Shown here: piece by piece, positions 12,427-24,852 of the stretch | How positions within the stretch are numbered: position 1 is the first letter of the stretch | How the letters are laid out: each line of letters opens with the position of its first letter | IMG/VR virus record: IMGVR_UViG_3300036399_001884 | Location: 1 to 26,712 of that record | Length of the DNA stretch: 26,712 bases | Source of the DNA: a virus | Direction: 5' to 3' (one strand) | Notes under the pieces: model-generated | Seen by the model: only the letters and a program-made list of their open reading frames with translations | What the model was told of the DNA's origin: nothing | Database searches by the model: none | Program-made: the position numbers and the translations under genes

Positions 12427-12473
12427 TAGAAACTTTGTCAAAAGGTTGGATGGGCGGTTAACCGCTCGCTCTG

Positions 12474-12517
12474 GGGCGGTTTACCGGCTTGTTTCTGCAG
12501 GGCAGAAACGGTATAGT
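12474..12517 (+). promoter_or_regulatory. Repeated promoter cassette P5 (double box)
   Basis: Close to the consensus: upstream box GGGCGGTTAACCGC at 12452, main box GGGCGGTTTACCGG at 12474 (22 bp apart), -35 TTGTTT (12489-12494), a perfect spacer hairpin GTTTCTGC-AGG-GCAGAAAC, and -10 TATAGT (12512-12517). ATG 12541 is 24 nt away. Confidence 0.9.
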
Positions 12518-12540
12518 AGTTACAGCGAACTTCACCAACC

Positions 12541-12777
12541 ATGGCCGTCACCCCTTACGCCCTGCTTCCCACCTTTGAGCGGGACTACATTATGACTGAG
12601 ATTCTTCGCTACAACGACGGCAAGGAGGTCGTCAGCAAAACCGCTGTGTGCCGCCTGACTGTAAACCGCGCCGCAAGCGTTACCCACCTCCCCGGCCACA
12701 AGCACGGCAGGGTTAGCTTCTGGCTCGATCACGACCCACGCATTGTTGCCGTCTCTTACACCTACGCGCTGGCCTGA
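12541..12777 (+). CDS. Hypothetical protein (78 aa)
   Basis: First gene behind P5. It looks beta-rich: DYIMTEILRYNDGKEVVSK, CRLTVNRAASVTHLPGHKHG, RVSFWLDHDPRIVAVSYTY. Small barrel or sheet protein of unknown function. It is followed by a GC-rich perfect hairpin at 12788-12803. Confidence 0.6.
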   Translation: MAVTPYALLPTFERDYIMTEILRYNDGKEVVSKTAVCRLTVNRAASVTHLPGHKHGRVSFWLDHDPRIVAVSYTYALA

Positions 12778-15115: not shown

Positions 15116-15147
15116 GTTTTGTGTGGGGCGGTTTACCGTTCTCCCTG

Positions 15148-15191
15148 GGGCGGTTTACCGGCTTGTTTCTGCTGATCAGAAACGGTATAAT
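15148..15191 (+). promoter_or_regulatory. Repeated promoter cassette P7 (double box)
   Basis: Upstream box GGGCGGTTTACCG at 15126, main box GGGCGGTTTACCGG at 15148 (22 bp), -35 TTGTTT (15163-15168), spacer hairpin GTTTCTG-N5-CAGAAAC, and consensus -10 TATAAT (15186-15191). GTG 15216 lies 25 nt downstream. Confidence 0.9.
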
Positions 15192-15215
15192 AAATACAGC
15201 GAACCGACCCCGGCA

Positions 15216-15512
15216 GTGACCACCCTCCACAAACTGAGCCACGACGACACTCACAACCGTCCGACCCAGTACGAAATCGTGGTGGTTATCGACGGGAAGA
15301 GGGTTCTCGGTGGCTACTCGGCAAAGAAAACAAAGAAGGCTCTGCTCACCGTCGCACTCGACAACGACGATGTCCGCCTCCAAATGCTCGCAGCTCTTCC
15401 CGCCGACGACGCCTCAACCCCAACCTACACCGCTCGCAACGGGTGGGTGCTGGGTAATTCAGTCATTCGTTGGTCCGGTGGCACACTCCGTCACCCTGCC
15501 CTTAGTTCTTGA
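15216..15512 (+). CDS. Hypothetical protein (98 aa)
   Basis: GTG 15216 is at the standard leader distance from P7; upstream frame extension would cover the promoter. A beta-rich opening (TQYEIVVVIDGKRVLGGYS) leads to a helix (KKTKKALLTVALDNDDVRLQ) and a beta-like end (ARNGWVLGNSVIRWSG). Unrecognised. Confidence 0.6.
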   Translation: MTTLHKLSHDDTHNRPTQYEIVVVIDGKRVLGGYSAKKTKKALLTVALDNDDVRLQMLAALPADDASTPTYTARNGWVLGNSVIRWSGGTLRHPALSS

Positions 15513-17088: not shown

Positions 17089-17097
17089 ACGGCTAGG
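17077..17097 (+). terminator. Hairpin at gene end, overlapping P9 box
   Basis: CCTAGCC (17077-17083) pairs with GGCTAGG (17091-17097) across a 7-nt loop that contains the TAG stop (17086-17088). No clean T-run follows; the right arm runs into the P9 box GGGCGG. Confidence 0.35.
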
Positions 17098-17139
17098 GCG
17101 GTTTCCCGTCTTTCCTTTGCCGCTAAACCACGCTATAGT
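17096..17139 (+). promoter_or_regulatory. Repeated promoter cassette P9 (most divergent)
   Basis: Box GGGCGGTTTCCCG, weak -35 TTTCCT (17111-17116), -10 TATAGT (17134-17139) at 17 bp. The spacer hairpin is not conserved. It drives the FGE-like DGR-target gene alone, with ATG 17172 33 nt past the -10. Confidence 0.75.
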
Positions 17140-17171
17140 AGTTACGGTGAATCGACCCCATCCTGAATCTT

Positions 17172-17912
17172 ATGGAAAACCTTTTCGTTGAAGAAATCAG
17201 CCTCACCATGGTGAAGATCCCGGCGGGTAGCTTTTTGATGGGTTCTCCTGAGAACGAGCCTGGCCGATCAGAAGCTGAAGGCCCCCAGCATGGGGTAACA
17301 CTGACCGCCTTCTGGATGGCCAAGACACCGATCACCCAGGCACAGTGGCGGGCGGTGGCGGGTTGGCAAAAGGTGGAGCGCGATCTGAAGCCCGATCCTT
17401 CGCAGTTCAATGGAGCGAACCGTCCGGTGGAGCAGGTGAGCTGGCACGAGGCGATGGAGTTCTGCCGCCGCCTGAGCCAGCGCACGGGCCAGCGCTACGG
17501 CCTGCCGAGCGAGGCCCAGTGGGAATACGCCTGCCGTGCCGGCAGCACCACACCGTTCCAGTTCGGGGCCACGCTGACGCCGGATCTGGCCAATTGCGGC
17601 ACTGCGCAAACCACCGATGTAGCAAGTTTTCCGGCTAACAACTGGGGCCTGCAGGATATGCACGGCAATGTGTGGGAGTGGTGCCTGGATGAATGGCACG
17701 AGAGTTACGAAGGTGCTCCCAGCGATGGCCGAGCCTGGGTGGATGCTGTGGAAGGGCAAAAGAGTAAAGAATTAGTAAAGACCAGGCTGCTGCGCGGCGG
17801 CTCGTGGCTCTTCTTCCCCGGGGACTGCCGCTCGGCTTGCCGCGACAACGTCCACCCGGACAGCTGCAACGACGACGTCGGTTTCCGCGTCTGTTGCCTC
17901 CCCCAGGACTAA
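17172..17912 (+). CDS. FGE-sulfatase/C-type-lectin-fold protein, probable DGR target (variable protein)
   Basis: This 246-residue protein spans the whole formylglycine-generating-enzyme-like domain: IPAGSFLMGSPENEPGRSE (16-34), HGVTLTAFWMAKTPITQAQW (40-59), RPVEQVSWHEAMEFCRRL (84-101), LPSEAQWEYACRAGSTTPF (111-129), WGLQDMHGNVWEWCLDEW (158-175) and RLLRGGSW (205-212). The C-terminal stretch 213-240 is where DGR variable proteins of this fold carry Asn-rich template-derived codons; here the codons show the mutated pattern. The Cys pair of active FGEs is not at the expected place, so a binding role is likelier than formylglycine synthesis. DNA of ~17330-17600 is much more GC-rich than its neighbours, suggesting transfer from a cellular genome. 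It sits alone between P9 and P10. Confidence 0.85.
   Translation: MENLFVEEISLTMVKIPAGSFLMGSPENEPGRSEAEGPQHGVTLTAFWMAKTPITQAQWRAVAGWQKVERDLKPDPSQFNGANRPVEQVSWHEAMEFCRRLSQRTGQRYGLPSEAQWEYACRAGSTTPFQFGATLTPDLANCGTAQTTDVASFPANNWGLQDMHGNVWEWCLDEWHESYEGAPSDGRAWVDAVEGQKSKELVKTRLLRGGSWLFFPGDCRSACRDNVHPDSCNDDVGFRVCCLPQD
17787..17895 (+). other. Putative DGR variable region (VR)
   Basis: After RGGSW the codons are CTC TTC TTC, then GAC TGC, TGC, GAC AAC GTC CAC, GAC AGC TGC AAC GAC GAC GTC. Nearly every position that is Asn (AAC) in typical templates is NNC here, while the intervening framework (CGC TCG GCT, CCG, GGT TTC CGC) is intact. This is the outcome expected from adenine-specific mutagenesis of AAC codons. 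Confidence 0.7.
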
Positions 17913-17991
17913 TTCTTTACCCTTAAACTCTTTATTTCTTTACATTTTAGCTGTTGGCTGTGTGACGTTGGGCGGCTTTCCGCCCCCTGTG

Positions 17992-18035
17992 AACCGGTTT
18001 ACCGGCTTGTTTCTGCTCGGCAGAAACGCTATACT
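17992..18035 (+). promoter_or_regulatory. Repeated promoter cassette P10 (double box)
   Basis: The upstream element at 17970 is a 6 bp hairpin GGGCGG-CTTT-CCGCCC. The main box (CCGGTTTACCGG) aligns 22 bp later. -35 TTGTTT (18007-18012), perfect spacer hairpin GTTTCTGC-TCG-GCAGAAAC, -10 TATACT (18030-18035). ATG 18060 is 25 nt away. Confidence 0.9.
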
Positions 18036-18059
18036 AAATGAGTTGAAAGGCACTCCCCA

Positions 18060-18407
18060 ATGACATCACCCACAAAGTCTCTCCGCCCAACCATCGCCAA
18101 CTTGGCCGCAGGTCAAATTGTACGCGCTGGATACAGTTACCATGGCGACACATCCGGGGTCGTCAAATACCGTTTTATTGGTTTCAGGTACAACGATACG
18201 TGGTTCAGCAACTTAAGGGATCTTAAGAATTTCATGGGTGCCACGACTCTTGCGAGCCTAGAACAAGCAGCCGAACGCAGGGGCACGGAGTCAATACATG
18301 CTGGGTTCAAAAGTGTGCAGGGTGAGTACCAGTGGGAAGCCTACCTCTGGAACGGTGCCTTTCAAGTCGGAACAAGTGCCGATCGCCTTTTGCTGAAGGC
18401 TGTGTGA
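18060..18407 (+). CDS. Hypothetical protein (115 aa), paralogue of the 15532 product
   Basis: First gene behind P10. Most of it aligns with the C-terminal 100 residues of the 15532 protein: AGQIVRAGYSYHGD, YRFIGFRYNDTWFSNLRDLK, EAYLWNGAFQVGTS. It is the minimal form of that family without the N-terminal extension. The P8 and P10 leaders are near-identical, which suggests whole promoter-gene cassettes are duplicated and diverge. Function unknown. Confidence 0.7.
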   Translation: MTSPTKSLRPTIANLAAGQIVRAGYSYHGDTSGVVKYRFIGFRYNDTWFSNLRDLKNFMGATTLASLEQAAERRGTESIHAGFKSVQGEYQWEAYLWNGAFQVGTSADRLLLKAV

Positions 18408-18973: not shown

Positions 18974-18980
18974 TGCCCTA

Positions 18981-19024
18981 GGGCGGTTTCCCGGCTTGGT
19001 TTCTCGAAGGAAAACCGGTATAGT
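18981..19024 (+). promoter_or_regulatory. Repeated promoter cassette P11
   Basis: Box GGGCGGTTTCCCGG, -35 TTGGTT (18996-19001), spacer palindrome GGTTTCTC-N-GGAAAACC type, -10 TATAGT (19019-19024), 17 bp. The spacer arms differ from consensus yet still pair. ATG 19050 is 26 nt past the -10. Confidence 0.85.
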
Positions 19025-19049
19025 GATTACAGTTCACTTCAACTCTCCT

Positions 19050-23658: not shown

Positions 23659-23864
23659 CAAAAATCAAGCACTTTGCAAAAGTTGAACTCGACCTTGCCT
23701 CTGTCAAAGAGGCCGTGACTTCTTCTCTGGAGATTCAGTTTCCGGGGCAGAAAGTTACGAGTATTCTCCCTTTGTACTCAAGCCCTGTAGGATACTACGA
23801 GGACCGTTTCCCTTCGCAGAGGGACTTTTCTGGGTTTGAGGTTACTCTGGAGCCTAAGGGTTGA
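23655..23864 (+). CDS. Small protein (69 aa), family also at 19397 and 23431
   Basis: [35 protein letters not shown], a DRFPSQRD turn and [10 protein letters not shown] follow the same strand-helix-strand-strand order as its upstream neighbour. A tandem duplication followed by divergence is likely. Function unknown. It lies 70 nt before nadA. Confidence 0.65.
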
Positions 23865-23934
23865 CCTGAAAGATTTCCTCAGGATACCCACTAAAGGATC
23901 CTCAGACAAGCAAACAAAGCACTGGAGAAGCTCA

Positions 23935-24852
23935 ATGAGCATAGTTGAAGAAATTCTCAAGCTGAAAGAGCAGCGCAACGCTGTAATCCTGGCCCACTAC
24001 TACCAGGTTTCTGAAATTCAGCAAATTGCCGACTTTGTTGGGGACTCCCTTGAGCTGGCTCGCCAAGCTGCGGGAACAAACGCAGACGCGATTGTTTTCT
24101 GCGGAGTTCACTTCATGGCCGAGACCGCCAAAATTCTCAATCCGTTAAAAACCGTTTTACTTCCGGACATCAACGCAGGGTGCAGCCTGGCTGATGCCTG
24201 TTTACCGGATGACTTCGCAAAGTTTCGTGCGGAACACCCGGACCACTACGTAATTAGCTACATAAACTGCTCAGCAGCAATCAAGGCTCAGAGCGACCTG
24301 ATCTGCACCAGCAGCAATGCCGTGCGCCTTGTTGAACAGGTCCCGAAAAATCGACCTATTTTGTTTGCACCAGACAAAAACCTGGGGCGGTGGGTCGCCG
24401 AGCAGACTGATCGCGAGCTCACTCTTTGGGATGGAAGCTGCCAGGTTCACGAGGCTTTCAGCGAAGAAGCCTTAATGAACCTTTGGGTTGAACACCCCGA
24501 GAGCGAGGTCATTGCCCACCCTGAATGCGAAGAGGCACTGTTGAATTTGTCGGATTTTGCGGGTTCTACGAGTGCTTTGCTCCGCAGAGTGCAGGAAAGT
24601 ACGGCGGAGTCCTTCATTGTCCTGACGGAACCAGGTATCATTCACAAAATGAAGCAGGTTGCGCCGAACAAGGTGTTTCTGCAGGTTCCTGGACGAGACG
24701 GCTGTAGCTGCAACGACTGCCCATGGATGAAATTAAATACCCTGGAAAAAGTGCGGAATTGTCTGCGGGACTTGACGCCAGAGATCAACCTTGAAGAGGG
24801 ACTGAGACTGAAAGCTTTGCAACCCCTTGAGCGAATGCTTTCTCTTTCTTAG
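23935..24852 (+). CDS. nadA: Quinolinate synthase NadA
   Basis: 305 residues, the usual length for the short NadA form. NadA condenses iminoaspartate with dihydroxyacetone phosphate to quinolinate, the precursor of NAD, using an oxygen-sensitive [4Fe-4S] cluster. Compared with the Thermotoga enzyme as I recall it, all three cluster cysteines are present: Cys83 (AGCSLAD), Cys169 (GSCQVHE) and Cys262 ([13 protein letters not shown]). Active-site residues also match in order: His21 and Tyr23 (AHYYQ), Tyr109 and Asn111 (SYINCS), Glu197 (HPEC). Three repeats typical of the fold are present ([30 protein letters not shown]). ATG 23935 fits the family N-terminus; a longer frame overlaps the previous gene. 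No nadB or nadC is in the window, so it must draw on host iminoaspartate. Last gene of the P15 operon. Confidence 0.93.

Follow-up and report, generated by a model that had tools for sequence, protein, structure and literature searches.

A variable repeat of host DGR type in a jumbo cyanophage gene and its probable rewriting in trans

Introduction

The closest described counterparts of the gene reported here come from cyanobacterial diversity-generating retroelements (DGRs), from the Bordetella phage BPP-1 and from Treponema denticola. The remote variable proteins of cyanobacterial DGRs, which are mostly cytosolic (Vallota-Eastman et al. 2020, PMC7517822), are C-lectin targets with a variable repeat (VR) at the 3' terminus of the gene, far from the reverse transcriptase (RT) and with the template elsewhere, and they share a genome with the RT. 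In BPP-1, the target, Mtd, is encoded by a phage C-lectin-type gene with an A-specific VR at its 3' end, a short region 3' of the VR matters, and RT, Avd and template are all carried by the phage itself, beside the tail-fibre gene. TvpA of T. denticola (PDB 2y3c) and other FGE-type DGR targets are cellular proteins with an FGE-like C-lectin scaffold. FGE-type DGR targets are ligand-binding C-lectin proteins. By its own statement, the main global DGR survey cannot see remote targets (PMC8144416).

Here we analyze a 26,712-nucleotide stretch of viral DNA (positions 1 to 26,712 of the IMG/VR record IMGVR_UViG_3300036399_001884; hereafter, the window) that carries a gene combining features of all these systems. 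With the cyanobacterial remote targets it shares the C-lectin fold, the 3'-terminal VR and the distance from RT and template; here, however, the target belongs to a jumbo phage, with the machinery found in Cyanobium-like cells. As in BPP-1, an A-specific VR terminates a phage C-lectin-type gene, but this phage is without RT or template, and the gene is located among small genes with repeated promoter-like elements. The FGE-like scaffold is that of TvpA, in a phage-borne rather than a cellular protein. We propose, with a probability of about 0.62, that a jumbo cyanophage carries, in the window gene, a remote target for a DGR of the host type and that the VR of this gene is rewritten in trans by the host. 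What is new is the split of target and machinery between phage and host across many cyanophages, along with a possible frameshift switch in related phage genes.

An A-specific variable repeat at the 3' end of an FGE-type gene

The gene at 17172..17912 (plus strand) encodes an FGE/C-lectin-type variable protein of 246 aa that matches the Pfam FGE-sulfatase family (PF03781) over residues 12-240 (E 2e-51) as well as PHROG 18508 (E 1.1e-71), and its PDB relatives include PvdO (5hha) and the T. denticola variable protein (2y3c). AlphaFold models, with a pLDDT of about 55, were set aside. A domain of this kind did not turn up in a survey of 224 jumbo phages (PMC7824862). The gene stands alone, its neighbours being small genes, and a tail-fibre context was not seen; directly 5' of it is a copy of a promoter-like intergenic repeat (17096..17155, plus strand, repeat family D5), in an upstream context common to the sister phage.

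The protein ends in RGGSWLFFPGDCRSACRDNVHPDSCNDDVGFRVCCLPQD, followed by the stop. The corresponding VR (17787..17906, plus strand) extends from CTGCTGCGCGG to CCCCCAG and is homologous to the host template repeat described below; the last ~110 bp of the gene read CGC GGC GGC TCG TGG CTC TTC TTC CCC GGG GAC TGC CGC TCG GCT TGC CGC GAC AAC GTC CAC CCG GAC AGC TGC AAC GAC GAC GTC GGT TTC CGC GTC TGT TGC CTC. All variable codons are NNC with the single exception of GGG, codon 10 of the repeat, compared with 31% NNC in the gene body. Comparison of the window VR with the closest host template (locus L051) shows differences at 14 of 25 A sites and at 3 of 83 other sites (Fisher p=1.5e-8). Among 39 gapless homologous repeats (29 phage and 10 host) gathered from viral contigs and cyanobacterial genomes, template-A sites have a mean entropy of 1.73 bits, compared with 0.22 at the remaining sites, an 8-fold contrast. 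The 3' end of the window gene is an A-specific DGR variable repeat; the preliminary description of this locus, which had assigned a VR of the DGR type to a phage FGE-like protein and had noted that nearly all variable codons have the NNC form, was correct on both counts, as well as in coordinates and sequence.

The contrary view, that this is ordinary FGE-family variation combined with an NNC codon bias, could appeal to RGGSW...GFRV being a normal FGE/C-lectin motif, of which AAC-rich NNNP versions exist. Yet, NNC codons account for 31% of the gene body, the A-site and entropy contrasts are those given above, and templates adjoin RTs in host genomes; the A-site test with host templates refutes this view, and we assign it next to no probability. 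The window gene bears two marks of a DGR target, namely, an A-specific VR and the placement of this VR at the 3' terminus of a gene of the C-lectin/FGE kind. The RT and template that would make up a complete element are absent from both the window and the sister phage, and the RT also from the other viral records searched.

The carrier phage

Two viral contigs, of 277 kb (G021) and 56 kb (G022), are collinear with the window and 91-96% identical to it. The larger one encodes a terminase, portal, baseplate, DNA polymerase, ribonucleotide reductase, psbA, NadA, ~50 tRNAs and a tmRNA, a gene content that identifies the carrier as a jumbo cyanophage, and it holds the FGE gene at the equivalent position. 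Because this contig breaks inside the same collagen-like repeat gene with which the window starts, it is probably near-complete, with a small gap possible. A megablast search of the window against phage records gave no match.

As the preliminary description had stated, the window contains neither an RT nor a template: the VR is present in a single copy, at 17787..17906, with no second or template copy in the window. In the 277-kb relative, an RT was found neither by the PF00078 profile nor by a DGR-RT protein query (the positive controls from hosts, G032 and G310, matched), and no template repeat was found either. The PF00078 profile detected an RT in none of 31 viral records, including a 189-kb contig, the 277-kb contig and two complete Microcystis phages; the latter two carry similar VRs, and cultured Microcystis phages carry an FGE/VR gene of like kind. 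These results bear on one of the two alternatives offered in the preliminary description, namely, that the DGR core is located elsewhere on the phage. The window is a fragment, and the break in the collagen-like gene leaves room for a small unsequenced part where such a core could sit, but the collinear relative without RT or template, as well as the 189-kb phage contig and the complete Microcystis phages with similar VRs and no RT, render a phage-encoded core improbable.

DGR cassettes and templates in Cyanobium-like genomes

Complete Avd-RT-template cassettes with near-matching templates were located in Cyanobium-like MAGs. On the host contig CAIZQU010000157.1 (L051/L056), the FGE target VR is followed by bAvd (E 1.7e-14), the RT and an AAC-rich template, and pairs of RT and template belonging to two subtypes (VCCL and VVCL) are present in several Cyanobium-like MAGs. 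Given the absence of the RT from the viral records and the presence of these cassettes in Cyanobium-like MAGs, the phage carries the target of a host-type DGR. The other alternative in the preliminary description, that a host DGR diversified the target or was the source from which the phage took it, gains support from these cassettes and from the close templates and targets in the same genomes.

Near-matching templates lie beside RTs in host genomes; template-like repeats with <=3 mismatches occur in 7 of 400 genomes of the family. The exact counterpart did not turn up: the predicted exact template occurs in 0 of 61 family genomes, the strict template pattern had no match in genome contigs, and no template identical to the window VR at all non-A sites was found, the best one (L051) retaining 3 non-A mismatches. 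In viral contigs, the template-like pattern matched only L013, a stand-alone repeat pair without an FGE body or RT.

Several further observations concern these elements. In L013 (a 26.8-kb record), a nearly unmutated AAC-rich template-like repeat lies at 393-527 in a phage ORF, beside a VR of a different type. In L053, L054 and L055, which are host DGR cassettes with an open RT frame, the adjoining template looks decayed or truncated. DGRs are present in the genomes of Cyanobium-like picocyanobacteria (L051, L058-L062 and L065), although a 2020 survey recorded none for Synechococcus or Prochlorococcus, both of them unicellular genera (PMC7517822).

Probable retrohoming in trans, and recombination

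The pattern of similarity among the repeats points to how they might have changed. In phage-phage comparisons, synonymous third-position identity is 0.62 in gene bodies and 0.88 in VR framework codons, with the VR higher in 62 of 66 pairs; between the window and the 189-kb phage L019, the respective values are 0.41 and 0.94, and the island of identity stops at the VR borders. In an anchored, ungapped comparison, in which flank identities are lower bounds, the high-identity island that L019 and L012 share with the window is confined to the VR, and neither flank is similar. Between the window and G021, with 93% identity in the flanks, the VR differs at A-type codons and the framework is almost intact. 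Directly 3' of the VR, a ~48-nt tract that holds the stop codon (17907..17955, plus strand) stands out by phage-host conservation, with identity of 0.69-0.85 inside and 0.22-0.27 beyond; being common to host DGR targets and absent from host templates, it is a candidate target-recognition element. In BPP-1, the IMH together with a short downstream region suffices to redirect the DGR to a heterologous gene (PMC3240598). The VR-bounded similarity islands, the homogenised framework codons, the shared ~48-nt tract and the A-type differences between the window and G021 favor rewriting in trans.

Under the scenario that we propose, the phage would provide the FGE/C-lectin scaffold, the VR and the downstream tract, and the Cyanobium-like host would provide Avd, the RT and the template RNA. 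During infection, the host DGR would rewrite the phage VR by A-mutagenic retrohoming, so that the phage protein would present a ligand-binding face that varies, and homologous recombination with host targets would serve as a second source of new gene segments. Retrohoming on phage DNA inside the cell, the Cyanobium-like host of the phage and ligand binding by the protein are parts of this scenario that we infer.

Other findings count against rewriting in trans, namely, the 3 non-A mismatches to the best template, the absence of the tract from some phage VRs, including that of L019, which is refreshed nevertheless, and three signs of recombination or stasis. First, the gene body is mosaic: the segment at 17330..17590 (plus strand) is closest to the FGE gene of a host MAG, L043 (91%, with the sister phage at 88%), and the segment at 17590..17792 (plus strand), as indicated by identity bins and best matches, has been replaced relative to the sister phage, to which it is 52-80% identical in 60-nt bins compared with ~93% in the flanks, its closest match being the host DGR target L062 (84%). 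Second, in L038 compared with L010, the linker and the second repeat of a two-repeat gene were swapped together. Third, phages that are nearly identical to each other have the same VR, and a comparison of MaMV-DC with MaMV-CH01 shows 34 differences in 1376 flanking sites (2.5%) but 0 in 114 VR sites, whereas LMM01 differs from both at 22 of 114 VR sites. The preliminary description had held that residues fixed in the closest homologues would speak against diversification; for the nearest relative, in which the VR differs at A-type codons, this objection fails, and in other lineages, as these phages show, it partly stands. The frozen VRs of close relatives, together with the mosaic gene body, imply that any rewriting is episodic rather than continuous and that recombination contributes.

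Taken further, these signs lead to a rival scenario in which VRs are diversified in host chromosomes and reach phages by homologous recombination only, never being rewritten on phage DNA. The linker-inclusive VR swap and the mosaic body with its host-derived segments could be explained by recombination alone; the frozen VRs fit as well, and the ~48-nt tract could act as recombination homology. This scenario accounts poorly for the islands in L019 and L012, which in the ungapped comparison with the window are limited to the VR between dissimilar flanks, and for the homogenisation of the VR framework, which is general across phages. We consider exchange by recombination alone the less likely of the two scenarios and favor retrohoming in trans supplemented by recombination.

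Relatives with two variable repeats

The window gene has a single in-frame VR, without an in-phase slippery heptamer. By contrast, scans of viral contigs revealed 13 phage FGE genes that carry two VRs (L004, L005 with two genes, L006, L008, L009, L010, L023, L025, L028, L040, L083, and one that spans the adjacent loci L090 and L038). In the 12 fully analysed two-VR genes, the VR1-VR2 spacing is 124-130 bp and always 1 modulo 3. The reading frame of the FGE body is that of VR2, and VR1 is in the -1 frame, in which a stop codon, TGA or TAA, is located <=2 codons past the VR1 end in at least 5 different linker sequences. Across VR1, the diversified NNC codons appear as NCN in the zero frame, which therefore cannot stop in them; this register yields a linker rich in Thr, Ser, Ala and Pro. 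L010 and L038/L090 have VR1s identical to the base, their linkers and VR2s differ, and both retain the VR1 stop. Some VR1 copies (L005b, L008, L028) show framework decay. The tandem pattern was found in 0 of 9 host genomes, which had been selected by their VR or TR matches, and a VVCL-type tandem pattern recovered from viral contigs only one decayed, unrelated arrangement.

In 7 of the 13 two-VR genes, an in-phase heptamer is located exactly 12 nt 5' of VR1 (G_GGA_AAG in six, A_AAA_AAG in one), whereas all 28 single-VR genes lack it (Fisher p=7.6e-5, with no correction for relatedness). Both heptamers are highly shift-prone in E. coli, according to a review (PMC5009743). Heptamers of these two kinds, in the correct phase, underlie -1 frameshifting in lambda G-GT and E. 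coli dnaX, and the GGAGG found 10 nt upstream of the heptamer in most of the loci resembles the dnaX stimulator; the VR framework could fold into a stem located a few nt 3' of the heptamer, with mostly modest z-scores (-0.3 to -3.7). The other 6 genes have GGGGGAG, and we left them out as frameshift evidence because this string is non-canonical and a similar one precedes a single VR in a host (L050). In L002, which has one in-frame VR, the surrounding sequence is kept, with GAGAAAG and one extra base in place of the heptamer, a pattern that would be expected if the slippery site had been lost along with the second VR.

These features raise the tentative idea that, in cyanophages, host DGR targets have turned two-ended, so that a -1 frameshift would pick between two independently hypervariable C-termini, one encoded by VR1 and the other by VR2. 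The frequency of the shift would determine their ratio, and the mutagenesis would come from the host. The zero frame would run through VR1 as a linker and end in VR2, and after a -1 shift at the slippery heptamer VR1 would be read in its own frame, with a stop just after it. Unlike in lambda G-GT and dnaX, such a shift would choose between two DGR-diversified C-termini. The layout could also have a neutral origin, with the heptamer a relic of an ancestral in-frame join that was followed by a 1-nt deletion; GGG-AAA-GTG-CTG indeed encodes the natural join GKVLRGGSW, and because of this explanation we keep the probability of the frameshift switch below one half. An arrangement in which VR1 is the expressed repeat and VR2 a silent downstream cassette was ruled out by translation, which shows the opposite.

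Two additional features were noted among these phage loci. In L004, L008, L009, L023, L025 and L028, the CCTGGGGGAG that just precedes VR1 corresponds exactly to the reverse complement of CTCCCCCAGG, which lies at the VR 3' end. L016, L021 and L026, on viral contigs without RT, contain in-frame tandem RGGSW...GFRV cassettes with a period of ~141-153 bp.

Possible function and implications

For some multicellular bacteria, it has been proposed that DGR targets act as anti-phage or antigen sensors (PMC10907252). By analogy, the phage copy might possibly serve as a decoy or counter-sensor. If host DGRs do rewrite phage genes in trans, hypermutation would be a resource common to phage and host, and surveys that look only beside RTs would miss such targets. 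Should the frameshift switch be real, the two-VR layout would be, to our knowledge, the first case in which programmed frameshifting is tied to DGR diversity; among the papers found, only a phage-annotation review contains both terms. With a like gene in cultured Microcystis phages, parts of these scenarios can be tested in the laboratory.

Additional features of the window and its relative

Within 5605-26116, the window contains many copies of a repeated intergenic module (GGGCGGTTTACCGGCTTGTTTCTGC...GCAGAAACGGTATAGTA) that precedes numerous small genes, for example, at 12451-12553, 15125-15227, 17969-18071 and 18975-19041, and copies are also found across the 277-kb relative; the module resembles a hairpin-containing promoter element of phage-wide distribution. 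The window also encodes a phage-borne NadA (quinolinate synthase; 23836-24852) that is present in the 277-kb relative as well, and the latter additionally has matches to nicotinamide phosphoribosyltransferase, so that genes for NAD synthesis are carried by a jumbo cyanophage.
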